Shown here one piece after another: positions 15,741-35,128 of a stretch of DNA of 35,377 nucleotides; position 1 is the first letter of the stretch, and every line of letters begins with the position of its first letter. The translations under genes were made by a program, and so were the position numbers. Origin of the DNA: Nocardiopsis suaedae (GTDB lineage Bacteria > Actinomycetota > Actinomycetes > Streptosporangiales > Streptosporangiaceae); NCBI RefSeq assembly GCF_027706745.1, contig NZ_JAQFWP010000070.1, positions 1 to 35,377 on the forward strand, in the 5' to 3' direction. The notes beneath the pieces are model-generated. The model was given only the letters and a program-made list of their open reading frames with translations, was not told the origin of the DNA and did not search any database.

Positions 15741-16010
15741 TCAGCGGCGCAGACCCAGGCGCTGGATCAGCTCGCGGTAGCGGTTGATGTCCTTCTTCTG
15801 GATGTACTTGAGAAGGCGGCGGCGGCGGCCGACCATCAGCAGCAGCCCGCGGCGGCTGTGGTGGTCGTGCTTGTGCGTCTTCAGGTGCTCGGTCAGCTCG
15901 GTGATGCGGTGCGTGAGCAGCGCCACCTGGACGTCGGGCGAGCCCGTGTCGCCGTCGACCGTGCCGTACTCGGCGACGATCTTCTTCTTGGTCTCGGCGT
16001 CGATCGCCAA
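15741..16010 (-). CDS. rpsO: 30S ribosomal protein S15
   Basis: An 89-aa protein of exactly the usual S15 length: [15 protein letters not shown], then [48 protein letters not shown], then [13 protein letters not shown]. It binds the central domain of 16S rRNA early in 30S assembly. The start is TTG 16010, with GAGGGAG a few bases upstream; an in-frame ATG much further up would add unrelated sequence. It lies between ribF and pnp in the standard order, with its own hairpin terminator. A strong hairpin in its leader may be a self-binding site. Confidence 0.97.
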
Positions 16011-16159
16011 AGGTGCTCCCTCTCGATGATTCGGTACGCGTGTGCCGCCTCCGCGGTCGGGGCGGCGGCCGCGGTGACCGCGCGTACGAGCAGTCACCGT
16101 CCCAGACGGGCCCGCCTCCCTGGGCGGCGCACCGGCGCCGCGCCCCGGGCGGGCGGCCG

Positions 16160-16182
16160 CGTTCCGCGCTCGGCGCGGAACG
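16160..16182 (-). promoter_or_regulatory. Perfect hairpin in the rpsO leader, candidate S15 autoregulatory element
   Basis: CGTTCCGCGC (16160-16169) pairs perfectly with GCGCGGAACG (16173-16182) around a TCG loop, 150 bases above the rpsO start. A -10-like TAGACT (16212-16207, minus strand) lies about 25 bases upstream of it, so the hairpin would fall near the 5' end of an rpsO transcript. It may instead be the ribF terminator. No gene is seen in 16011-16277. Confidence 0.4.
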
Positions 16183-16277
16183 GGCAGGGCTGAACAGCCT
16201 CTAGCGAGTCTAACGCACGTTGGGCCTACCCAGGACCGGAGTGTGAGGAGGGCCGCCCTCGCGTGCGCGCGGCCCCC

Positions 16278-16772
16278 TCAGACCTGCGGTGCCGCCTCAT
16301 CCCGCATCAGCACGCGGGCGCGCTCGACGTCGGCGTTCATCGCCTCGATCAGCTCGTCCACGTCGGCGAACCGGCGCTGGCCGCGGATGCGGTGTACGAA
16401 GTCCACCGCCATCTTCTCCCCGTACAGGTCCAGGTCGTCGCGGTCCAGGGCGTAGGCCTCGACCGTGCGCTCGGTGCCCTCGAAGGTCGGGTTGGTACCG
16501 ACCGAGATCGCCGCGGGCCAGCGCGCCTCGGCGCCCTGGTCCGGGTCGGTGCGCAGCAGCCACCCCGCGTAGACCCCGTCGTCGGGGACCTCGCCGCCCT
16601 CGGCGGCGTCCAGGTTGGCCGTGGGGAACCCGAGCAGCTCCCGCCCGCGGGCGGCGCCGTGCACGACCACGCCCTCCACCCGGTGCGGGCGGCCGAGCGC
16701 GGCGGCGGCCTCCTCGACCCGCCCCTGGGCGATGAGCTCGCGCACCCCTGCGGACTGCCCCTCCTGCGGCAC
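16278..16772 (-). CDS. ribF: Riboflavin kinase domain protein; RibF lacking its FAD-synthetase half
   Basis: This 164-aa protein corresponds to the C-terminal part of bifunctional RibF (normally ~310 aa). It begins at the domain junction (SAGVRELIAQGRVEEAAAALGRPHRVEGVV) and carries the kinase marks GRELLGFPTANL, GVYAGWLLR, ISVGTNPTF and VEAYALDRDDLDLYGEKMAVDFVHRIRGQRRF. It should phosphorylate riboflavin to FMN. The N-terminal FMN adenylyltransferase domain (with GxFDGVHxGH) is absent: only 50 bases separate this start from the truB stop, and no frame there encodes it. GTG 16772 has a good SD (GAGGAGG), so the short form looks expressed rather than decayed. FAD synthesis would need another enzyme elsewhere. 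It keeps the normal ribF position between truB and rpsO. Confidence 0.85.
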   Translation of the reverse strand: MPQEGQSAGVRELIAQGRVEEAAAALGRPHRVEGVVVHGAARGRELLGFPTANLDAAEGGEVPDDGVYAGWLLRTDPDQGAEARWPAAISVGTNPTFEGTERTVEAYALDRDDLDLYGEKMAVDFVHRIRGQRRFADVDELIEAMNADVERARVLMRDEAAPQV

Positions 16773-18173: not shown

Positions 18174-18515
18174 TCATTCCTCCTCTGGACCGAAGAGCCG
18201 CCGCCTCGCGGAGAGCAGCTCGATCTCTGGCCGTCCGGCCACCAGGCGCTCGCAGGTGTCGAGCACCTCGGTGCAGTGCGCGGCCGTGGAGGCCACGACG
18301 GCGATCCCGATCTCGGAGCGGCGGTACAGGTCCTGGTCCCCGGTCTCGGCGACCGAGACGGAGAAGCGCCGCTGGATCTCGGCCACGATGGGCCGGACCA
18401 CCGACCGCTTCTGCTTCAGCGACCGGACGTCGCCCAGCAGGATGTCCAGGGTCAGGGACCCGACGAATGCGCCGTTCCGGGCGCGGTTCCTCGCGTTGCG
18501 CGATCTGGATGTCAT
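18174..18515 (-). CDS. YlxP-like DUF503 protein
   Basis: A 113-aa protein with the DUF503 pattern VGSLTLDILLGDVRSLKQKRSVVRPIVAEIQRRFSVSVAETGDQDLYRRSEIGIAVVAS, then LDTCERLVAGRPEIELLSARRRLFGPE. The family sits between infB and rbfA in many Gram-positive genomes and is linked to ribosome assembly, but its biochemical role is not settled. Homologues usually start with M-x-VG, whereas here VGSL is preceded by about 18 basic residues, and no SD stands before ATG 18515 (or ATG 18527). The exact start is therefore uncertain. Confidence 0.85.
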   Translation of the reverse strand: MTSRSRNARNRARNGAFVGSLTLDILLGDVRSLKQKRSVVRPIVAEIQRRFSVSVAETGDQDLYRRSEIGIAVVASTAAHCTEVLDTCERLVAGRPEIELLSARRRLFGPEEE

Positions 18516-18567
18516 CACATGCCACATGACGGAGTGGCGGGCCGTCGAGGGGTGGTGGGAACGGGGG

Positions 18568-18595
18568 GCGGGGCCCCGCCGGAGCGGGGCCCCGC
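18568..18595 (-). terminator. Hairpin between infB and ylxP
   Basis: Two copies of GCGGGGCCCCGC separated by CGGA form a perfect 12-bp stem, starting 9 bases past the infB stop. It would reduce read-through into ylxP-rbfA-truB. Confidence 0.65.
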
Positions 18596-18604
18596 ACCGC
18601 CGTG

Positions 18605-21577
<2,973 letters not shown>

Positions 21578-26882: not shown

Positions 26883-28400
26883 TCAGCCTCCCAGGGAGAA
26901 GGTCGTCATGACCGAGGCGTGGTCCGAGGTCCACTCGTTGTCGGCGTGGTCCGGGTACACCTCCGGCTCGCCGGCCACCAGGGTCTGCGACTCCTCCACG
27001 GCGAGTGGGCCCGCGTAGTAGATGAAGTCGATGCGGTCCTGGGGCTCGTCCACCCCGGTGGCGCCGTCGCGCTTGGGGAACAGCGGCGACCAGGTGGTGC
27101 CGGGGACGTCCGCCGGGTCGGGGTGGGCCTCGCGGAAGGAGTCGGTCAGCCCGGCGTCGGTGGGCACGGTGGAGGCGGGCCAGGGGACGTCCGCGTAGCC
27201 GCAGTTCTTCTCCCGCAGCTCCTCGGTCCAGTCCAGGTGCGACGGGGAGTTGAAGTCGCCCATGAGCAGGACCGGGTCCTCGTCGGCGGCGGCCAGGTCG
27301 TCCTGCATGGCCTCGACGGTGTCGGTGATCTGCGGGGTGCGGCCGGACTCGGCCTCGCGCTCCAGGATGCGCTCGACGCTCATGCCCGAGTCGCAGGCGT
27401 CGTAGGGGCCGTAGGGGGTGTAGCCCAGGTGCACGTCCCAGACGGCGACCTCGGAGTCGGTGCCGTCCAGGGCGATCTTGACGCTCCCGGAGGCGTTGAC
27501 GGTGCCGCGCTCCTCGGTGATCGGGTAGCGGCTGATCACACCGAGGCTGCCGGAGGACTGCCAGTGGTCCCAGCCCAGGGCGTCCGCCAGGCGCTCGGCG
27601 GCCTCGCCCTCGGTCTCCTGCAGGCCGACGATGTCGGCGTCGGACTCGATGAGGTAGCGGAGCTGCTTCTCGTGGTACCCGTTCACCTGCGTGCCGGCGT
27701 GCCAGGTGTTGTAGCTCATCACGTTGAGCTCGCCGACGAGGTCCTGGTTCTCCTCGCGGACCGGGATGGCGGCGGTGATGGAGGCCGTGGAGCCGTCGGC
27801 GCCGGTGGCCTCGATCTCGACCTCGGCGTCCCTGTCACCGTCGGGCGTGCCGGTGAGGGTGCCGTCCTCGGCGACCTCGACCCAGCCGCGGCCGCCGGTC
27901 TTGCGGAAGGCGACCCCTTCGCCGCCGCCGGAGACCAGGCCGCCGACCGAGGCCTCGTAGGCGTCGCCCTCACGGGCGTTGCGCAGGGTGATGCCCTCGG
28001 TCGGGAAGGACACCGGCCGGTCGTCGGCCACGGTGAAATCGACCGGGTCGGCCAGCCAGGCGTAGCCGTCCTTCGCCAGGAGGTAGGCGGTGTAGTCGCC
28101 GGCGCGCAGCCCGGAGGTGTCGACGGTGGCCTCGCCCTGCGCGTCGGGCGCGTAGGTCCAGGCGAGGGAGGGCTCGGTGTACTCCTCGTCGACCGGCCCC
28201 TCGCCGCCGCGGTACACCCCGATCCAGTTGGTGCCGTCGGGCGCGTCCGTGCCGTAGGCGAACCGGGCCTGCTCGCCGACGGCCACCGGTCCGGCCAGGG
28301 CCAGGGTCCCCGCCTCGGCCTGCGCCGGGGCGGCCGCCCCGGCCAGGACGGCCGCGGCCGCCGCGGCGGACGCGATCGCGCGTCTCCACCAGCCTCGCAT
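26883..28400 (-). CDS. Secreted endonuclease/exonuclease/phosphatase-family enzyme with N-terminal Ig-like domains
   Basis: A 505-aa exported protein. A Sec signal peptide (MRGWWRRAIASAAAAAAVLAGAAAPAQA) ends in an AQA cleavage site. Residues ~30-125 form a beta-sandwich (FAYGTDAPDGTNWIGVYRGGEGP) seen in some secreted phosphodiesterases, and ~130-215 a second Ig-like domain (GLVSGGGEGVAFRKTGGRGWVEVAEDGTLTGTP). The EEP catalytic domain runs from ~220: LNVMSYNTWH, DIVGLQETEG, WDVHLGYTPY, LMGDFNSPSHLDW, DRIDFIYY and TSDHASV. These supply the metal and catalytic Asn, Glu, Asp and His of DNase I/sphingomyelinase-like enzymes. The substrate is a phosphodiester or phosphomonoester outside the cell, not further defined. 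ATG 28400 has GGAGG 4 bases upstream. Confidence 0.88.
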   Translation of the reverse strand: MRGWWRRAIASAAAAAAVLAGAAAPAQAEAGTLALAGPVAVGEQARFAYGTDAPDGTNWIGVYRGGEGPVDEEYTEPSLAWTYAPDAQGEATVDTSGLRAGDYTAYLLAKDGYAWLADPVDFTVADDRPVSFPTEGITLRNAREGDAYEASVGGLVSGGGEGVAFRKTGGRGWVEVAEDGTLTGTPDGDRDAEVEIEATGADGSTASITAAIPVREENQDLVGELNVMSYNTWHAGTQVNGYHEKQLRYLIESDADIVGLQETEGEAAERLADALGWDHWQSSGSLGVISRYPITEERGTVNASGSVKIALDGTDSEVAVWDVHLGYTPYGPYDACDSGMSVERILEREAESGRTPQITDTVEAMQDDLAAADEDPVLLMGDFNSPSHLDWTEELREKNCGYADVPWPASTVPTDAGLTDSFREAHPDPADVPGTTWSPLFPKRDGATGVDEPQDRIDFIYYAGPLAVEESQTLVAGEPEVYPDHADNEWTSDHASVMTTFSLGG

Positions 28401-28573
28401 CGTGCCTCCGTTCTCACTGCGCGTGCGCAGGTCGCACGCGTTGACGGCGCACGACCATCGCACAGCGCACGGCGGCCGAACCCCGGGTAACGGTTCGGAG
28501 AAGGTTACGCTCTTCCTAATCGGAAGCAGGTAAAGCGCCAGCGGAGCGCGGGGACCGGGCCAAACATCGCCGC

Positions 28574-28597
28574 CCCGGCCGCCCGGCGGCGGCCGGG
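28574..28597. other. Hairpin in the divergent spacer upstream of the monooxygenase promoter
   Basis: CCCGGCCGCC and GGCGGCCGGG form a perfect 10-bp stem with loop CGGC, just upstream of the -35 of the monooxygenase operon. It may insulate that promoter. The rest of 28401-28573 holds two tandem 11-base units starting GGTT (28492-28513) and no gene. Confidence 0.4.
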
Positions 28598-28604
28598 CGA
28601 TTCG

Positions 28605-28651
28605 TTGTGGGCTCGTCACCCCGCTGATACACTACCAAGCGTTCGCTTGGT
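28605..28651 (+). promoter_or_regulatory. Promoter of the monooxygenase operon with a TetR-type dyad operator
   Basis: TTGTGG (28605-28610) and TACACT (28628-28633) are 17 bases apart. The perfect palindrome ACCAAGCG-TT-CGCTTGGT (28634-28651) follows immediately and would cover the transcription start. Near-identical dyads lie at 34430-34447 and 34502-34519. The form and position suit a TetR-family repressor; none is encoded in the window. Confidence 0.68.
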
Positions 28652-28673
28652 TGGTACCGACCCCGGAGGCGCC

Positions 28674-29744
28674 ATGGCGTCCCTGCGCATCAGCCTGGGA
28701 TACGAGGTGGAGGTCCGCGGCCGCACCCGCGAGGTGGAGCGGCGCGCCTTCGAGAACACCCTGGCCCAGGCCGAACTCGCCGACGAGCTGGGCTATGAGG
28801 CCGCCTGGCTCGTCGAGCACCACTTCACCCGCGGCTTCTCCCACTCCTCGGCCCCCGACCTGGTGCTGGCCGCCGTCTCCCAGCGCACCCGGAACCTGCG
28901 GCTGGGGCTGGGGGTGGTGCTGCTGCCCTTCCAGCCGCCGGTGCGCACCGCCGAGCGCGTCGCCACCCTGGACGTGCTCTCCGGCGGCCGGGTGGAGTTC
29001 GGTACCGGGCGCGGCGCGTCCCCCCTGGAGTACCAGGCCTTCCAGCGGCCGTTCGAGCAGTCGCGGCGGATCTGGGAGGAGTCCCTGGACGCCGTGCTGG
29101 AGATCTGGCGGGCCGACGGCGAGCCCGTCACCCTGGACGGCCCCTACTTCCAGGTGCCCGGGGTCTCGGTGCTGCCCCGGCCGGTGCAGGAGCCCCACCC
29201 GCCGGTATGGGTGGCCTCCACCAGCCTGGAGGGGTACCTCGCCGCCGCCCGGCGCGGGCACAACCTGCTCGGCATGACCATGCTCAAGGGCCTGGACGAC
29301 GTGGCCGAGGACATCGCCGCCTACCGGCGGCAGCTGGCCGAGAGCGGCTTCGACCCGGACAGCCGCCGGGTGGCGCTGATGGTGCCCTGGCACGTGGCCC
29401 CCACCCGGGACGAGGCCCTGGAGACCGCCGCGGACGCCGTGCTCTGGTACATCCGCCGCCAGGTCAACCTGGTGACCCCGCCGGGCTACTACGACGCCCG
29501 GCACGCCACCCACCGGGTGCTCGGCCAGCTCGCCGCGGGCATGGCGCCCGAGGAGGCGCTCGACGTGCTGCGCGAGCACCACATGGTGGTGATCGACGAC
29601 GTGGCCGGATCGCGCGAGGCGGTGCGGCGCATCGCCGAGGCCGGCGCCACCGACCTGCTGCTGCAGGCGCAGGTGGGCGGGCTGGCCCACGAGCACGTGT
29701 GCAACTGCCTGAAGCTGTTCCGACAGGAGGTGGCGCCCTCGTGA
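28674..29744 (+). CDS. Luciferase-like flavin-dependent monooxygenase (LLM family)
   Basis: A 356-aa TIM-barrel enzyme of the bacterial luciferase-like group. Typical segments are ISLGYEVEVRG, AQAELADELGYEAAWLVEHHFTRGFSHSSAPDLVLAAVSQRTRNLRLGLGVVLLPFQPPVRTAERVATLDVLSGGRVEFGTGRGAS and HPPVWVASTSLEGYLAAARRGHNLLGM, then a C-terminal ADAVLWYIRRQ and LLLQAQVGG. Such proteins use FMNH2 (from a separate reductase) or F420. A flavin reductase carrying the same operator sits at 34565, favouring a two-component FMN system. ATG 28674 has GGAGG 4 bases upstream. The stop overlaps the next start. The substrate is unknown; CoA-linked neighbours suggest a CoA thioester or its precursor. Confidence 0.87.
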   Translation: MASLRISLGYEVEVRGRTREVERRAFENTLAQAELADELGYEAAWLVEHHFTRGFSHSSAPDLVLAAVSQRTRNLRLGLGVVLLPFQPPVRTAERVATLDVLSGGRVEFGTGRGASPLEYQAFQRPFEQSRRIWEESLDAVLEIWRADGEPVTLDGPYFQVPGVSVLPRPVQEPHPPVWVASTSLEGYLAAARRGHNLLGMTMLKGLDDVAEDIAAYRRQLAESGFDPDSRRVALMVPWHVAPTRDEALETAADAVLWYIRRQVNLVTPPGYYDARHATHRVLGQLAAGMAPEEALDVLREHHMVVIDDVAGSREAVRRIAEAGATDLLLQAQVGGLAHEHVCNCLKLFRQEVAPS

Positions 29745-30856
29745 GCGGGCGGACATGGATCCGGGCCGACCTCCCCGGGCCCGGGACGGCCCCCGACCCG
29801 GAGGGCGAACTGCTGCTGCTCGGACCCGACGGCGTGCCCGGCGCCGCCCTGGGACGGGACGACCGGGTCTGCGCCACCGAGCTGGGCTGCTCCCTGATGG
29901 CCCGGGCCGGGGTGGCCTGGGGCGACCGGGTGGCGGTGGCGCTCAGCGCCGAGGGCGACCAGACCGGTGCCCTGGTGGCCGAGTCCGCCGCCAACGCCGG
30001 GGGCCGGACCGCGGTGCTCGGCCCGCGCGGACGGATGCGGTCGCACGCCGCGATGCGGGCGATGGACGCCACGGTGCTGGTGGCCACCCCGTGCGGGGCG
30101 GCCGACCTGCTGGCCCGGCTGCACATGGAGTTCCAGGCCGACCCGCTGGACCTCGGCCTGCGGCGGATCCTGCTGGCCGGGGAGATCGCCCCGGACGCGC
30201 TGCGGCGGCGGCTGGCCGCCGAGTTCGGGGCCGAGGTCGGCGACCTGTTCATCGACCCTCTGCTGCAGGTGCCCGTCGCCTACCGGCCGTTCGGGACCGA
30301 GGGCGCCGACGGGTTCGAGGCCGCGCTGTCCGGGACGATCGGGCTGGCGCCGCTGGACGCCGACACCGTGTACGAGCCGCCCTACCCGGCCGGGACGGCG
30401 GAGATCGTGACGCTGCCCGACTGGCGCCCGAAGTTCCACGGGATGGTGGTGCGCACCGGGTTCACCGCCGAGCCCGCCGCGGGCGCCACCGCGGTCCCCG
30501 TCCCCTCGGGGACCGTCGGCGAGCGCGTCCTGGTGCGGGGGCGGTGGCTGCCGCTGCCGCGCCTGGAGCGCGAGCTGGCGCGGGTCGACGGGATCGGTGC
30601 CTGGGAGCTGCGGGTGTCCCGCCCCGGGACGCTCGACCTGGCCGAGCTGCGTGTGGCCTTCAGCCGGGCCTCCCTCATCGGCGACCGCATGTGGACGGCG
30701 CGCATCGAGCAGGCGCTGGCGTCGTTCTCCCCCGTGCGGATCGCGGTCGTGGTGGAGGACGAGGCGCGGGACGAGGGCGGCGCGGGCCGGCTCACCGATG
30801 AGCGCGGGCACCACCTGGCGCGCGACAGGGGCGACGCGCGGGCCCGCACCGGCTGA
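29741..30856 (+). CDS. Degenerate PaaK-like adenylate-forming protein
   Basis: This 371-aa protein has the look of phenylacetate-CoA-ligase-type enzymes without their catalytic motifs. Resembling PaaK are GVAWGDRVAVALSAEGDQTGALVAESAANAGGRTAVLGPRGRMRSHAAMRAMDATVLVATPCGAADLLARL, the helix-turn RRILLAGEIAPDALRRRLAAEFGAEVGDLFIDPLLQVPVAY (in PaaK, FGGE and YGLSE sites) and a C-terminal RLERELARVDGIGAWELRVSRPG-like domain. Missing are the Thr/Ser/Gly-rich ATP loop, a YGxxE motif, a TGD motif and the usual C-terminal lysine context. It may be a scaffold or regulatory partner, a specialised enzyme, or a decaying gene, though the frame is intact. GTG 29741 overlaps the monooxygenase stop (GTGA), so synthesis should be coupled. 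Confidence 0.68.
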   Translation: MSGRTWIRADLPGPGTAPDPEGELLLLGPDGVPGAALGRDDRVCATELGCSLMARAGVAWGDRVAVALSAEGDQTGALVAESAANAGGRTAVLGPRGRMRSHAAMRAMDATVLVATPCGAADLLARLHMEFQADPLDLGLRRILLAGEIAPDALRRRLAAEFGAEVGDLFIDPLLQVPVAYRPFGTEGADGFEAALSGTIGLAPLDADTVYEPPYPAGTAEIVTLPDWRPKFHGMVVRTGFTAEPAAGATAVPVPSGTVGERVLVRGRWLPLPRLERELARVDGIGAWELRVSRPGTLDLAELRVAFSRASLIGDRMWTARIEQALASFSPVRIAVVVEDEARDEGGAGRLTDERGHHLARDRGDARARTG

Positions 30857-30888
30857 CACCGCCCCGCGGCATGCGAGGAGGACCCCCC

Positions 30889-32601
30889 ATGGCCCAGTCC
30901 CCCGAACCTCCCGTCTCCCCCGCGTCCCCTCCCGTCCCCGACCCCACCGCCTTCCCTCCCCTCCCCGAGGGGTGGACCACCCTGCCGCGGATGCTGCGCG
31001 GCCGGGCGCGCCGCACCCCCGGGGCGGTGCTGCTGGCCGCCGACGGCGAGTGGCTGACCGCCGAGGACCTGGCGGCGCGGGCGCGGCGGATCGGCCGGGC
31101 GCTGATCGCCTCCGGTGTGCGGCCGGGCGACCGGGTCGCGCTGATGGCGCCCAACTCCCCCGCCTGGGGCGCGGCCGCGTTCGGGGTGTGGGAGGCGGGG
31201 GCCGTGCTGGTGCCGCTGTCGACCCGCTACAAGGGGCTGGAGGCGGGCGGGCTGCTGCGCCGCACGGGCGCGCGGGTGCTGATGTGCGCCGAGCGGTTCC
31301 GGGACACGCCGTCCACCGGGGCCATCGGCCGGGCCGAAGGGCGGCCGGAGGGCGGGCGCCCCTTCGCCGGGCTTCCCGGGCTGGCCGAGGCGGTGCTGCT
31401 GGACGTGGAACCCGGCGGGCCGGAGGCGCGGCGCGAGGGCACGGTGGCCTTCGCGGCGTTCCTGGACCGGGCCGGGGCGGTCCCCGAAGCGGCGGCGGAG
31501 GAGCGCGCGCTGGGGGCGGGCGGCGGCGACCTGGCCGAGGTGCTGGCGACCTCGGGGACCACGGGCGAGCCCAAGGGGGTCATGATCCCGCACGGACAAT
31601 TGTTGCGGGGGTACTGGGACTGGGCCTCGGTGGTGGGCCTGGACGGGGAGGACCGGTACCCGGTCATCGCGCCGTTCTCGCACGGGTTCGGAGTGAACGC
31701 GGGGCTGCTGGCGGGGGTGATGCGCGGGGCGCGGCTGCTGCCGCAGGCCGTCTTCGACCCCGGCGGGCTGGCCGGTCTCATCGCCGATGAGGGGGCGACG
31801 GTGCTGGCGGGGCCGCCGACCCTGTTCCAGGGGCTGCTGGCGCGGCGGGCCGCCGGGGAGCGGTTCCCCGCGCTGCGGGTCGGCATCTGCGGGGCCGCGT
31901 CGGTGCCGCCGGAGCTGGTGCGGCGGCTCCTCGACGAGGGCGTGGTGCGGCGGATGGTCAACGCCTACGGGCTGATCGAGGGGACGGTGGTCTCCATGAC
32001 CCGGGAGGGCGACCCGGTGGAGGTGGTGGCCGGGTCCGCCGGGCGGCCGATGCCGGGCGTGCAGGTCGAGGTGGTGGACGAGAAGGGCGGGCCGCTGCCG
32101 CCGGGGGCGCGCGGGGAGATCCTGGTCGGCGGGTCCGGGGTGATGGACGGCTACTGGGGGGACCCCGGGCGCACGGCCGAGGCGGTCGACGGGCGGGGGC
32201 GGCTGCGCACCGGGGACGTGGGCGTCATGAGCGAGCGCGGCGACCTGTCGGTGGTGGACCGGAAGAAGGACGTGTTCACCGTGGGCGGGTTCAGCGCCTA
32301 CCCGGCGGAGATCGAAGCGCTGCTGGTGCGCTGCCCGCTGGTGGCGGCGGCGGCGGTCCTGCCGGTGCCGGACGAGCGGCTGGGCGAGGTGGGATGCGCG
32401 TTCGTGGTGCCCGCGGACGGCGGCGCGGGCGCCTCCGCCGCGGACACGGCGTCCGAGGTCACCGCCTGGGCCAGGGAGAACATGGCGAACTACAAGGTGC
32501 CGCGGAGGGTGGTGGCGGTGGAGTCGCTGCCGGTCAGCGCGAACGGCAAGACGGACAAGGCGGCCCTGGCGCGGCGCCTTGCCGACGGGCGGGAGAGGTG
32601 A
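30889..32601 (+). CDS. Acyl-CoA synthetase / AMP-dependent CoA ligase
   Basis: A 570-aa ANL-superfamily enzyme that activates a carboxylic acid as acyl-AMP and transfers it to CoA. All core motifs are present: ATP loop LATSGTTGEPKGVMIPH, YGLIEGTVVSMT (YGxxE variant), RTGDVGVMSERGDLSVVDRKKDVFTVGGFSAYPAEIEALL (A7-A8 and hinge) and SANGKTDKAALARRL with the C-terminal catalytic lysine. Upstream are the family helices (WTTLPRMLRGRARRTPGAVLLAADG, then VRPGDRVALMAPNSPAWGAAAFGVWEAGAVLVPLSTRYKG). The sub-type resembles medium/long or cyclic-acid ligases such as FadD3, but the substrate is not readable. ATG 30889 has GAGGAGG 7 bases upstream. It is third in the operon begun by the monooxygenase. Confidence 0.92.
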   Translation: MAQSPEPPVSPASPPVPDPTAFPPLPEGWTTLPRMLRGRARRTPGAVLLAADGEWLTAEDLAARARRIGRALIASGVRPGDRVALMAPNSPAWGAAAFGVWEAGAVLVPLSTRYKGLEAGGLLRRTGARVLMCAERFRDTPSTGAIGRAEGRPEGGRPFAGLPGLAEAVLLDVEPGGPEARREGTVAFAAFLDRAGAVPEAAAEERALGAGGGDLAEVLATSGTTGEPKGVMIPHGQLLRGYWDWASVVGLDGEDRYPVIAPFSHGFGVNAGLLAGVMRGARLLPQAVFDPGGLAGLIADEGATVLAGPPTLFQGLLARRAAGERFPALRVGICGAASVPPELVRRLLDEGVVRRMVNAYGLIEGTVVSMTREGDPVEVVAGSAGRPMPGVQVEVVDEKGGPLPPGARGEILVGGSGVMDGYWGDPGRTAEAVDGRGRLRTGDVGVMSERGDLSVVDRKKDVFTVGGFSAYPAEIEALLVRCPLVAAAAVLPVPDERLGEVGCAFVVPADGGAGASAADTASEVTAWARENMANYKVPRRVVAVESLPVSANGKTDKAALARRLADGRER

Positions 32602-32636
32602 CGGGGCGGACCGTTACGGGCGAGGTCCGCCCCGTC
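32600..32636. terminator. Bidirectional terminator between convergent CoA ligase and DUF35 genes
   Basis: GACGGGGCGGACC (32600-32612) and its complement (32624-32636) form a perfect 13-bp stem around an 11-nt loop. The left arm begins inside the ligase stop codon; the right arm ends 14 bases past the DUF35 stop. Confidence 0.75.
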
Positions 32637-32650
32637 GGGAGCACCCGGCG

Positions 32651-33163
32651 TCACTCGCGCGGGCGCCAGTCGACGACCTTGGTGAACGCGCCGCCGCCGG
32701 TAGGCGCCCCGGCTCCCGGGGCCGGCCCCGTGTCGGTGAAGACCGCCTCGACCGGCTGGCCGCGGCGCAGGTCGCCCGGGTCGGCACCGACCAGGCGGCC
32801 CCAGCAGTACAGCGCCGGACCGTCGTCCAGGGCCACCCGCAGCACCGTGTAGGGGGCCTCGAACGCGGGATGGAAGGTGCGGCGTGTGACGGTCCAGCCG
32901 TCGACGGTCCCGGTGCCGGTGCCTTCGCGCCACTCCCACTCCAGGGACAGGCACACGGCGCACACCTCCCTCGCGGGGAAGCGCGGGGTCCGGCAGTCGG
33001 CGCAGTACTGGACGAGGAAGCGCCCCTCCCCGACCGCCTCCCACCAGTAGGCGGAGTCCCGGTCCGCGCCGGGGCGGGGGCGCGGCGCGGCGGCCCCGCG
33101 CCCGTCCCGCCGCCGACCGTCCTGGTCCCGGACGTCCTGCCGAAGGCTCTGCGTTCGGTTCAT
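32651..33163 (-). CDS. DUF35 Zn-ribbon/OB-fold protein, partner of a thiolase-like enzyme
   Basis: A 170-aa protein with an N-terminal helix (DRDSAYWWEAVGEGRFLVQYC), a four-cysteine zinc ribbon (YCADCRTPRFPAREVCAVC) and an OB fold (WREGTGTGTVDGWTVTRRTFHPAFEAPYTVLRVALDDGPALYCWGRLVGA, then RRGQPVEAVF). DUF35 proteins pair with thiolase-fold proteins; in actinobacterial steroid side-chain degradation such a pair forms an aldolase (Ltp2 with ChsH2's DUF35 domain). Here the thiolase-like gene lies 49 bases upstream on the same strand. ATG 33163 has GGAGGTG 4 bases upstream. The N-terminal ~30 residues are charged and low-complexity. Confidence 0.9.
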   Translation of the reverse strand: MNRTQSLRQDVRDQDGRRRDGRGAAAPRPRPGADRDSAYWWEAVGEGRFLVQYCADCRTPRFPAREVCAVCLSLEWEWREGTGTGTVDGWTVTRRTFHPAFEAPYTVLRVALDDGPALYCWGRLVGADPGDLRRGQPVEAVFTDTGPAPGAGAPTGGGAFTKVVDWRPRE

Positions 33164-33212
33164 CGGTCACCTCCGCGGTGAGCGTCGTAGGGGCGCGCCG
33201 CCCAGGGGGCGG

Positions 33213-34394
33213 TCACCGCCCCGCGGTCAGCAGGAGGGCTGACGTGCCCGCCAGGACATAGCCCGGCTGACCGGTGGACAGGGCCACTTCGGCGCCGTCG
33301 ACCTGGCGCGGGCCCGCGTCGCCGCGGAGCTGGCCGACGGCCTCGGCGACGTGGTTGATACCGTGCACGTACCCCTCGGACAGGAATCCCCCGTGCGTGT
33401 TCACCGGCAGCTCTCCCCCGATTCCCAGGGCCTCCGAGGCGGCGAAGGGGCCGCCTTCGCCTTTCCGGCAGAAGCCGTAGTCCTCCAGTTGCACGACCAC
33501 CGTCCAGGTGAAGCAGTCGTAGAGCTCCGCGAGGTCGACGTCGTCGGGGCCCAGGCCGGCCATTGCGTACAGGCGCGGGGCCAGGCGCGCGGCGGACGAG
33601 GTCGTCAGGTCGTCGCCCAGGCCGCCGGGGGCGGGCGGGGAATAGGTCGAGTGGCCTCCGGCCCAGGCCGCAGCGGCGATGTCCACGGGCGGCCTGCGCA
33701 GGTCGCGGGCGCGTTCGGCGGAGGTGACGACCAGGGCGCAGGCACCGTCGGTCTCCAGGCAGCAGTCCAGCAGGCGGAACGGCTCCGAGACCCAGGGCGA
33801 GGCGAGGTAGTCGTCGAGGGTGATGGGGTCGCGCTTGAGCGCGCGCGGGTTGGCGGCGGCGTTGGCGCGCTGGCGGACAGCGATCGCCCCGAGGTGTTCG
33901 TGGGTGGTGCCGTAGGCCTGCATGTGGGCGCGGGCGGGGACGGCGTAGTGCTGGACGGGCGCGAGAAGCCCATAGGGGGCCTGGTATTGCAGGTCGAACG
34001 CGCCCGCGGGGGCGCGGCCCTGCCCGCCCATGCGGAACTCGGAGCGCGCGTTGATGGCGCGGTAGCAGACGACGACGTCGGCGATTCCCGCGGCGACGGC
34101 CAGAGCCGCTTGGCCGATGACGGCGTGCGAGACCCCGCCGCCGCCGAACTGGTCGAGGTGCCAGGCGGGGTCGGTGATTCCGAGGGCGGGGCCCACGACC
34201 CATGGGGGGCTGGAGTCGCCGACCCGGTGGGTGGCGATACCGTCGACGTCGCCGATGCCCAGCCCGGCGTCGTCGAGGGCGGTGAGCACCGCGCGGCAGG
34301 CGAGGGCGGTGGTGCTGATACCGGAGTCGCGGCTGAACGGGGTGGTGCCCACCCCGGCCAGCGAGGCCGCTCCGCTCAGTCCCGTTCCCGCCAC
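33213..34394 (-). CDS. Thiolase-fold protein without the catalytic cysteines (Ltp2/SCP-x-like, probable aldolase)
   Basis: A 393-aa thiolase-superfamily protein of the lipid-transfer/non-specific group: GVGTTPFSRDSGISTTALACRAVLTALDDAGL, then HLDQFGGGGVSHAVIGQAALAVAAGIADVVVCYRAINARSE, LLDCCLETDGACALVVTSAERA, DVDLAELYDCFTWTVVVQLEDYGFCRKGEGG and PVNTHGGFLSEGYVHGINHVAEAVGQLRG. The nucleophilic cysteine expected in the GGG-S-H stretch and the second cysteine expected in the C-terminal GQPG stretch are both absent; the NxHGG motif is kept. That pattern fits retro-aldolases such as Ltp2, which use tyrosines, rather than true thiolases. GTG 34394 follows GGGGAGG. A consensus -35 and an operator lie upstream. 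It is followed by DUF35, its likely partner. Confidence 0.85.
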   Translation of the reverse strand: MAGTGLSGAASLAGVGTTPFSRDSGISTTALACRAVLTALDDAGLGIGDVDGIATHRVGDSSPPWVVGPALGITDPAWHLDQFGGGGVSHAVIGQAALAVAAGIADVVVCYRAINARSEFRMGGQGRAPAGAFDLQYQAPYGLLAPVQHYAVPARAHMQAYGTTHEHLGAIAVRQRANAAANPRALKRDPITLDDYLASPWVSEPFRLLDCCLETDGACALVVTSAERARDLRRPPVDIAAAAWAGGHSTYSPPAPGGLGDDLTTSSAARLAPRLYAMAGLGPDDVDLAELYDCFTWTVVVQLEDYGFCRKGEGGPFAASEALGIGGELPVNTHGGFLSEGYVHGINHVAEAVGQLRGDAGPRQVDGAEVALSTGQPGYVLAGTSALLLTAGR

Positions 34395-34422
34395 GGCCGC
34401 CTCCCCGGTCCGGTCCCCTCCG

Positions 34423-34452
34423 AGTCAAGACCGAGCAAACGCTTGGTGTCAA
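34423..34452 (-). promoter_or_regulatory. Promoter of the thiolase-DUF35 unit with an operator in its spacer
   Basis: On the minus strand a perfect TTGACA (34452-34447) is followed after 18 bases by a weak -10, TTGACT (34428-34423). The spacer is filled by the dyad ACCGAGC-AAAC-GCTTGGT (34430-34447, plus-strand reading), differing by one half-site base from the dyad at 28634. Repressor binding here would exclude RNA polymerase. Confidence 0.6.
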
Positions 34453-34469
34453 GAGGGCGACCCCGGCGG

Positions 34470-34519
34470 GTGACGGGGCGGGCTTCGGCGAGTAGGATGA
34501 AACCAAGCAAGCGCTTGGG
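34470..34519 (+). promoter_or_regulatory. Promoter of the flavin-reductase gene with an operator at the start site
   Basis: GTGACG (34470-34475) and TAGGAT (34493-34498) are 17 bases apart. The dyad ACCAAGC-AAGC-GCTTGGG (34502-34519) follows the -10 by three bases, the same geometry as at the monooxygenase promoter. It is back-to-back with the thiolase promoter. Confidence 0.6.
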
Positions 34520-34564
34520 AGATACCGAGGGGGCGACCCCGGCCGAGGACAGGAGGGCAGGCCC

Positions 34565-35128
34565 GTGTCAGGAGACCGAGGGGGCGCACACCGCGCCGTG
34601 GCCGAGGCGCCCCGAACCCGTTGGAACGGGGCCCACCCCGCACCGGCCCCCTTCGGATCCCGGGAGTTCCGGGACGCCTTGGGCCGGTTCCCCACCGGGG
34701 TGGTGGCGGTGGCGGCCCACGACCCGCACACGGGCCGCCCGGTGGGCCTGGCGGCCAACTCCTTCACCTCGGTGTCCCTGGACCCGCCGCTGGTGGGGTT
34801 CTGCGTAGGCCGGGCGAGCACGAGCTGGCCGGCGCTGCGGTCGGCGCCCCGGCTGGCGGTGAGCATCCTGGGCGCGGACCAGGAGGAGGCGTCCCGCCGC
34901 CTGGCGGCCAGGGGCGGCGACAAGTTCTCGGGCATCGCCTGGCACGCGTCCCCGTCCGGGGCCCCGGTCGTCGAGGGGTCGCAGGCATGGCTGGAATGCG
35001 AGGTGGAGGCCGAGCACCCGGCGGGAGACCACATCATCGTGGTGGCACGCGTCCACCACCTGTCCGACCAGGGCGGAACCGCGCCGTTGCTGTACTACAG
35101 GGGCGAGTACCGAGCCCTGGAAAAGTAG
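34565..35128 (+). CDS. Flavin reductase (HpaC/RutF-like), probable partner of the LLM monooxygenase
   Basis: A 187-aa protein with the flavin-reductase-like split barrel: SREFRDALGRFPTGVVAVAAHD, then GLAANSFTSVSLDPPLVGFCVGRASTSWPALRSAPRLAVSILGADQEEASRRLAARGGDKFSGIAW, then WLECEVEAEHPAGDHIIVVARVHHL and a final LLYYRGEYRAL. Such enzymes reduce FMN or FAD with NAD(P)H and supply it to a separate monooxygenase. The only flavin monooxygenase in the window is the LLM protein at 28674, which has the same operator. GTG 34565 has AGGAGGG 7 bases upstream; the first ~28 residues are extra relative to the domain. Confidence 0.88.
   Translation: MSGDRGGAHRAVAEAPRTRWNGAHPAPAPFGSREFRDALGRFPTGVVAVAAHDPHTGRPVGLAANSFTSVSLDPPLVGFCVGRASTSWPALRSAPRLAVSILGADQEEASRRLAARGGDKFSGIAWHASPSGAPVVEGSQAWLECEVEAEHPAGDHIIVVARVHHLSDQGGTAPLLYYRGEYRALEK

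Follow-up and report, generated by a model that had tools for sequence, protein, structure and literature searches.

KstR2 is the TetR repressor of steroid C/D-ring (HIP) catabolism. Here, we analyzed three copies of the dyad ACCRAGC-N4-GCTTGGK in a stretch of 35,377 nucleotides from Nocardiopsis suaedae (the window), which is the entire contig C70 of a genome of 6,968,238 bases in 139 contigs, and we propose that these dyads are very probably operators of a KstR2-type TetR repressor encoded on a second contig of the same genome, C33. The effector of KstR2 is HIP-CoA (PMC5380842), and nine KstR2 sites, including one from R. jostii and three M. tuberculosis gel-shift probes, have been tabulated (PMC3068626). 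The present work takes three palindromes to a conserved regulon, as predicted here, for which a candidate regulator can be named; it also provides an operator code that lets this regulon be read in many genomes.

Like the KstR2/HIP regulon of Mycobacterium and Rhodococcus (PMC3068626, PMC5380842), the predicted regulon combines a TetR protein of CoA-thioester catabolism with the same recognition helix and matching operators. It differs in that the C33 TetR belongs to a separate paralogous branch, tied in the window's genus to a set of luciferase-like monooxygenase (LLM), Ltp and ligase genes, and in that the HIP genes of this genus have a KstR2 of their own with a changed helix and operator. 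A second relative is the Ltp2-ChsH2(DUF35) steroid side-chain aldolase (PDB 6ok1, T. curvata), together with Sal/Shy (PMC12329534): here, too, a thiolase-like gene lies beside a DUF35 gene and both tyrosines are retained, but His296 is Cys in the window and Ala in a C33 copy, and none of the six window genes came out as a ChsH1/MaoC-type hydratase in a Pfam scan. With two-component FMN-dependent luciferase-like monooxygenases, finally, the system shares an LLM and a flavin reductase in one predicted regulon; unlike them, its window LLM scores under the cut-off of each of the 25 NCBIfam models listed, and three LLMs stand with CoA ligases in one predicted regulon. The preliminary description of this DNA did not recognize the gene combination as a described pathway, and we likewise found no matching pathway among the matches listed from the open-access literature. 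There, the only match to the dyad letters was PMC3068626, via a 14-mer string, and among the matches listed for KstR2 with Streptosporangiales, or for Nocardiopsis with steroids, nothing concerned this regulon.

A rare dyad at conserved promoters

The three sequences named in the preliminary description are present in the window, and each fits ACCRAGC-N4-GCTTGGK exactly. The sites, with an adjoining promoter-like element, are as follows.

28625..28633, + strand: −10-like element TGATACACT, adjoining operator 1 on its 5' side; TGATACRCT or TGCTACGCT in 8/8 genomes aligned
28634..28651, unstranded: operator 1, perfect dyad ACCAAGC-GTTC-GCTTGGT, 5' of the LLM operon; arms unchanged in 8/8 aligned genomes
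34430..34447, unstranded: operator 2, ACCGAGC-AAAC-GCTTGGT, 5' of the thiolase-DUF35 genes; site at the same place in 6/6 genus genomes
34502..34519, unstranded: operator 3, ACCAAGC-AAGC-GCTTGGG, 5' of the flavin reductase gene; identical in 6/6 genus genomes

These sites account for all exact matches in the window (four strand matches at three places; none in 100 dinucleotide shuffles). A motif common at random genome positions would have told against the preliminary description, by its own account; the exact form is instead rare, with four places in 6.97 Mb (three on the window, the fourth at C33:11672) against 0 for the reversed control. Looser forms are not enriched, neither with three mismatches in the window (16 against a mean of 14.8) nor with two mismatches in the genome, where counts fall below those of the control (84/76 against 120/114), so only near-exact sites are informative. 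The core AAGCN4GCTT is rarer than its reversed control (14 against 106) and is unhelpful alone. Nine further places carry one mismatch, two of them on C33 (43384 and 51428) and seven elsewhere.

Across the genus set, which comprises the window's genome (G000) and five relatives (G001 to G005), sites occur at the orthologous promoters of the LLM operon (6/6) and of the thiolase and flavin reductase genes (6/6 genomes). Operator positions are constant in the five relatives, though the genes diverge to 58 to 99% identity. In the operator 1 alignment, the arms are constant and the two middle bases switch between TT and AA; the operator 2 position reads ACCAAGCAACTGCTTGGT in two of the six genomes, and the TTGACA adjoining this thiolase site is kept in 6/6.

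Two neighboring features lie at the left edge of operator 1. A GC-rich hairpin of 8 pairs at 28580-28599, just 5' of the operator, was scored as terminator-like by a scan in which 0.7 would be expected by chance. An Exo_endo_phos-family gene (26883-28619, − strand) is divergent from the LLM operator; it is probably no core member, because it was not found at the corresponding place in G025 and G079.

A KstR2 paralogue encoded beside the window

The window holds no regulator, as the preliminary description remarked, and the most likely reason is simply that the contig stops too early: a candidate TetR gene lies just outside, on C33. That C33 continues the right end of the window is judged from three relatives (G002, G004 and G005), in which the flavin reductase and TetR genes share a contig, 7.8 to 9.4 kb apart; in G005, the intervening genes correspond, by eye, to those that open C33. 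In G001 and G003, the two genes are on separate contigs. The TetR gene and the C33 sites are listed here.

C33:7581-8384: TetR gene, start probably GTG 7647, about 8 kb past the right end of the window
C33:11672: fourth exact site, with a thiolase-like/Dabb pair on one side and a second LLM-ligase pair on the other
C33:17847: near-match with two mismatches, at short-chain dehydrogenase/reductase (SDR), DUF35, ligase and ATP-grasp ligase genes (SDR on the other side)
C33:43384: near-match with one mismatch, before an oligopeptide-type ABC transporter
C33:51428: near-match with one mismatch, before aldehyde dehydrogenase (ALDH), alcohol dehydrogenase (ADH), hydrolase and LLM genes

The genome check thus places the fourth exact site by a second LLM and a thiolase-like gene, on the contig that carries the TetR gene. 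Each C33 site precedes a catabolic or transport operon, with sites at the same place in relatives: the LLM promoter site recurs in 6/6 genus genomes (two with an altered end base), the SDR/DUF35 and ALDH sites in 5/5 covered genomes each, and the transporter site is strong in 2/3 covered genomes and weak in G002. Several C33 gene names, among them the second ligase (18436-20136), the transporter ATPases, WhiB and CydAB, were assigned by eye only. The six genes that the preliminary description joined into one regulon are all present, but the predicted regulon is larger and extends onto C33, where it would add two more LLMs, CoA ligases, a transporter and dehydrogenases.

The C33 TetR (PF00440, PF17932) finds its best PDB matches in 2ibd (7.5e-56) and KstR2 4w1u (7.5e-53), and C33-type proteins share 43 to 46% identity with the PDB KstR2s. 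It is a paralogue of KstR2 on a separate branch: in an unrooted tree of 12 sequences, seven C33-type proteins split from 2ibd, 4w1u and three proteins of the type encoded on contig C43 (support 1.000), which places the C33 TetR outside the KstR2 orthologue clade. Nevertheless, the recognition helix GILSGSLYHHF is identical to that of 2ibd and 4w1u in 7/7 C33-type sequences, and the KstR2 operator AnCAAGnnCTTGnT recurs at loci of this TetR type. The nine KstR2 sites published in PMC3068626 have 0 to 2 mismatches to the window dyad; seven, including all three gel-shifted M. tuberculosis probes, have one mismatch, and the R. jostii site ro04652/53 contains ACCAAGCGATTGCTTGGT, with no mismatch to the dyad.

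For other species, we used 80 named TetR loci (the best 80 of the TetR matches listed); the laboratory strain N. potens DSM 45234 also has the locus. Of 53 occurrences of the KstR2 14-mer in the 80 loci, 47 fall at the TetR promoter, between −200 and +60 relative to the start of the TetR match (0 in the control), so autoregulation of C33-type TetRs in relatives is very likely. With a position weight matrix (PWM) built from G000 sites, and counting sites at a score of ≥18 within about 10 kb of TetR, we obtained 47 sites, spread over 39 of the 80 loci, against 0 for the reversed control; wherever LLM1 was within reach, a site preceded it (10/10 loci). In a further set of twenty stretches from eight genomes and six genera, sites lie before many of the same genes, although the set favors finding them, since TetR guided the choice of the stretches, as did listed sites in six of the genomes. 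A survey of 150 family genomes gave a mean of 2.26 sites in the 94 genomes with a C33-type TetR and 0.68 in the 56 without (reversed control, 0.48 against 0.43). Among the sites listed, 21/74 lie within 50 kb of TetR, where 0.87 would be expected. Support for the earlier proposal of one dyad-marked regulon therefore comes from the way sites are distributed over the genome, from orthologous-promoter conservation and from a KstR2-like TetR linked in many genera; that of a TetR repressor responding to acyl-CoA is well supported as a prediction.

From the conserved sites, from the TetR linked to them and from the KstR2-like helix and operators, we infer binding, repression, an acyl-CoA ligand and co-expression as follows. 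When no inducer is present, a TetR dimer on ACCAAGC-N4-GCTTGGT, at or beside the transcription start, would block RNA polymerase. The regulon's own acyl-CoA ligases would turn the substrate into a CoA thioester, which would bind the C-terminal domain of the repressor and release it from the DNA. One signal would then open the window promoters (LLM-PaaK-like-ligase, thiolase-DUF35 and flavin reductase) and those on C33 (second LLM and ligase; Dabb and thiolase-like; SDR/DUF35 and ligases; oligopeptide-type ABC transporter; ALDH-ADH-hydrolase-LLM). The enzymes would most likely convert a carboxylic acid, cyclic or branched, into its CoA ester, which FMNH2-dependent LLMs would then oxygenate and Ltp2/DUF35 retro-aldolases would cut.

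Two KstR2-type regulators with different predicted operators

The genome also encodes a KstR2 orthologue, in a genome without KshA.

C43:12250-12873: KstR2 orthologue, in a HIP-type cluster (L136:8751-20000)

This cluster holds a FadA6-like thiolase (NF005865) and an EchA20-like hydratase (NF005925), both over cut-off, together with acyl-CoA dehydrogenases (one from Pfam, the second by eye), SDRs, an IpdA-like CoA-transferase-family protein, an IpdB-like frame (15870-16595, 71% to its G025 counterpart) and a FabK/NMO-like protein that matches the description of IpdC in PMC5380842. The recognition helix of the C43 type is altered, to GMLAGSLYYHF in G000 and G025 and to GMLGGSLYYHF in G002, and its clusters carry ACCAAACNNTTGTTAG at divergent promoters (six occurrences, two in each of three genomes), a sequence with no occurrence in the 80 TetR loci. 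Between the C33 and C43 types, the operator thus follows the recognition helix: here, two naturally occurring KstR2 paralogues differ in their helix/operator pairs.

In other genera, the C33 type does meet HIP genes. In 14 of the 80 loci, from Nonomuraea, Streptosporangium, Thermoactinospora, Planotetraspora and others, it is found next to FadA6 within a complete EchA20-IpdA-IpdB-IpdC-FadA6 set, with a site between EchA20 and an SDR in 10 of the 14. In one metagenome-assembled genome (G052), a single contig carries the LLM1 module along with TetR and HIP genes; HIP and LLM modules can therefore share this regulator type. Synteny and sites suggest HIP control by a C33-type TetR in Nonomuraea, Streptosporangium and others, whereas the HIP genes of the window's genus bear ACCAAACNNTTGTTAG instead and appear to belong to the C43-type paralogue.

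Alternative assignments of the operators

Several observations weigh against the assignment of the dyads to the C33 TetR. No PWM site was found at the above score and distance in 41 of the 80 TetR loci, the site at the TetR's own promoter in G000 is weak (C33:7608, PWM score 13.5), and the genome holds 58 TetR-like stretches at E ≤ 1e-3, that is, 57 besides the one on C33. PWM scores within G000 are circular, because the matrix includes the very sites to be explained; the significance of the co-occurrence is overstated, because related genomes are not independent; and of the seven one-mismatch places off C33, conservation was shown for only one (C2:216553). The preliminary description also saw a plausible promoter at each window site; the conserved −10-like element and TTGACA bear this out in part, but a strict sigma-70 scan of the window promoters found none.

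The abundance of TetR-like matches and the loci with no strong site would fit a different, unseen regulator that binds the dyads, with the C33 TetR a mere neighbor. We regard this as improbable given the linkage over many genera, the KstR2-like helix and operator, and the TetR-promoter site in relatives. It is more improbable still that the KstR2 orthologue on C43 controls the window sites while the C33 TetR does something else: the C43 protein is closer to PDB KstR2 (222 bits to 2ibd, against 193 for the C33 TetR) and groups with it in the tree at support 1.000, yet its helix is changed, it has its own operator ACCAAACNNTTGTTAG, and the dyad co-locates with the C33 type. A reading of the dyads as chance palindromes or structural repeats that regulate nothing, as a GC-rich genome and the unenriched two- and three-mismatch forms might suggest, is scarcely credible when the exact form is missing from shuffles, rare in the genome and kept in position at promoters. 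A KstR2-type repressor encoded on C33 remains the assignment that we prefer.

Predicted enzymes and substrate

The six window genes are given below.

28674..29744, + strand: LLM (Pfam PF00296, 2e-58), first gene of a probable operon
29741..30856, + strand: PaaK-like protein, in a 4-base overlap with the LLM stop; alignment of nine orthologues
30871..32601, + strand: AMP-dependent acyl-CoA ligase (PF00501; closest model FadD3, NF005801)
32651..33163, − strand: DUF35 protein (ChsH2-type zinc ribbon/OB fold; PF12172, PF01796)
33213..34394, − strand: thiolase-like protein, Ltp2-type putative aldolase subunit (PDB 6ok1, 4.2e-84)
34565..35128, + strand: HsaB-like flavin reductase (PF01613; NF045630, 169.9 bits)

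The LLM, PaaK-like and acyl-CoA ligase genes form a probable three-gene operon. An LLM start at 28605, as first described, would place the operator within the gene; the gene most likely starts at ATG 28674, this ATG and its Shine-Dalgarno sequence being conserved in 8/8 aligned genomes. PaaK-type CoA ligases have an ATP P-loop of the SGTTG type. This P-loop is missing from the PaaK-like protein in 9/9 orthologues aligned, and the protein (mean pLDDT of its fold model, 79) has no Pfam match at 1e-5, only a profile match to 2-hydroxyisobutyryl-CoA synthetase (1.5e-4) and weak DVU_1553/PaaK matches, both from the nine orthologues. The weak ligase matches and the absent P-loop suggest that it is probably not functional as a ligase, so the label "PaaK-like" holds for a weak kinship to PaaK-type ligases but not for their P-loop.

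The DUF35 protein is the probable partner of the thiolase-like protein; their genes adjoin in the window, whereas those on C33 are not adjacent. According to PMC12329534, Ltp2 uses Tyr294 as catalytic base and Tyr344 as acid. The equivalents of both are kept in the alignment of the thiolase-like protein to 6ok1, which makes the retro-aldol cleavage envisaged in the preliminary description plausible; the position of His296 is Cys, and the Ltp2 motif YDHF is not retained, reading YDCF in the window and YDAY in the C33 copy. The conserved tyrosines thus support, but do not prove, a retro-aldolase.

The ligase and the flavin reductase resemble steroid enzymes but fall under the model cut-offs (484.9 bits against 657 for FadD3, NF005801, and 169.9 against 230 for HsaB, NF045630), and the genome has five HsaB-like matches, the window flavin reductase being the best and none reaching the cut-off. 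KshA_C (PF19298) is found in 0/6 genus genomes, which weakens the case for standard steroid degradation; an HsaC-type model gives weak matches in 4/6 and is over cut-off in 0/6. In the 150 family genomes, the C33-type TetR is independent of KshA (E ≤ 1e-70: 23 with both, 71 with TetR only, 14 with KshA only and 42 with neither; odds ratio 0.97), also at the Pfam cut-off (29/65/16/40; odds ratio 1.12), while the KstR2 orthologue is more frequent in genomes with KshA (at least 28/37) than in those without (at least 21/113). The NCBIfam and PDB matches of the LLMs, including the window LLM, gave no substrate name.

A place for the regulon in the side-chain or ring steps of ordinary 9,10-seco steroid degradation would fit the KstR2-type regulator, the Ltp2/DUF35, FadD3-like and HsaB-like proteins, the same TetR type in HIP clusters of Nonomuraea, Streptosporangium and others, and the HIP cluster on C43; set against the KshA, HsaC and HsaB results and the TetR-KshA independence, we think it possible but short of likely. 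By the same results, we rate another cyclic acid, or a terpenoid one, as likelier than a classical sterol pathway, and the lack of KshA in the genus leaves room for a non-classical polycyclic or terpenoid substrate. We read the regulon as pointing toward a catabolic branch, steroid-like or terpenoid, that lacks KshA. More speculatively, and we consider this somewhat unlikely, a KstR2-derived repressor may run an undescribed aerobic LLM plus Ltp2/DUF35 route in Nocardiopsis and relatives that replaces KshA/HsaABCD and degrades a polycyclic or terpenoid acid into a HIP-type (hydrindane) pathway persisting without the classical ring A/B genes, with the KstR2 paralogues insulated by paired helix and operator changes.

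Further sites

Outside the two contigs, the near-match ACCTAGCGCCCGCTTGGG at C2:216553 (L031:7553) is unlinked and has an F420H2-dependent quinone reductase-type gene on one side and an FAD monooxygenase gene on the other. With counterpart sites at the same place in two relatives (L069:10012 and L084:10079), it is a probable further member of the predicted regulon. In other genera, dyad sites also stand, by eye, before a hydantoinase-like gene and a branched-chain-amino-acid-type ABC transporter (L125:6209-8281 and L135:5920-10093). At C4:43311 (L030:7311), GCCGAGCGAGTGCTTGGT lies about 40 bases 5' of a zinc alcohol dehydrogenase gene.

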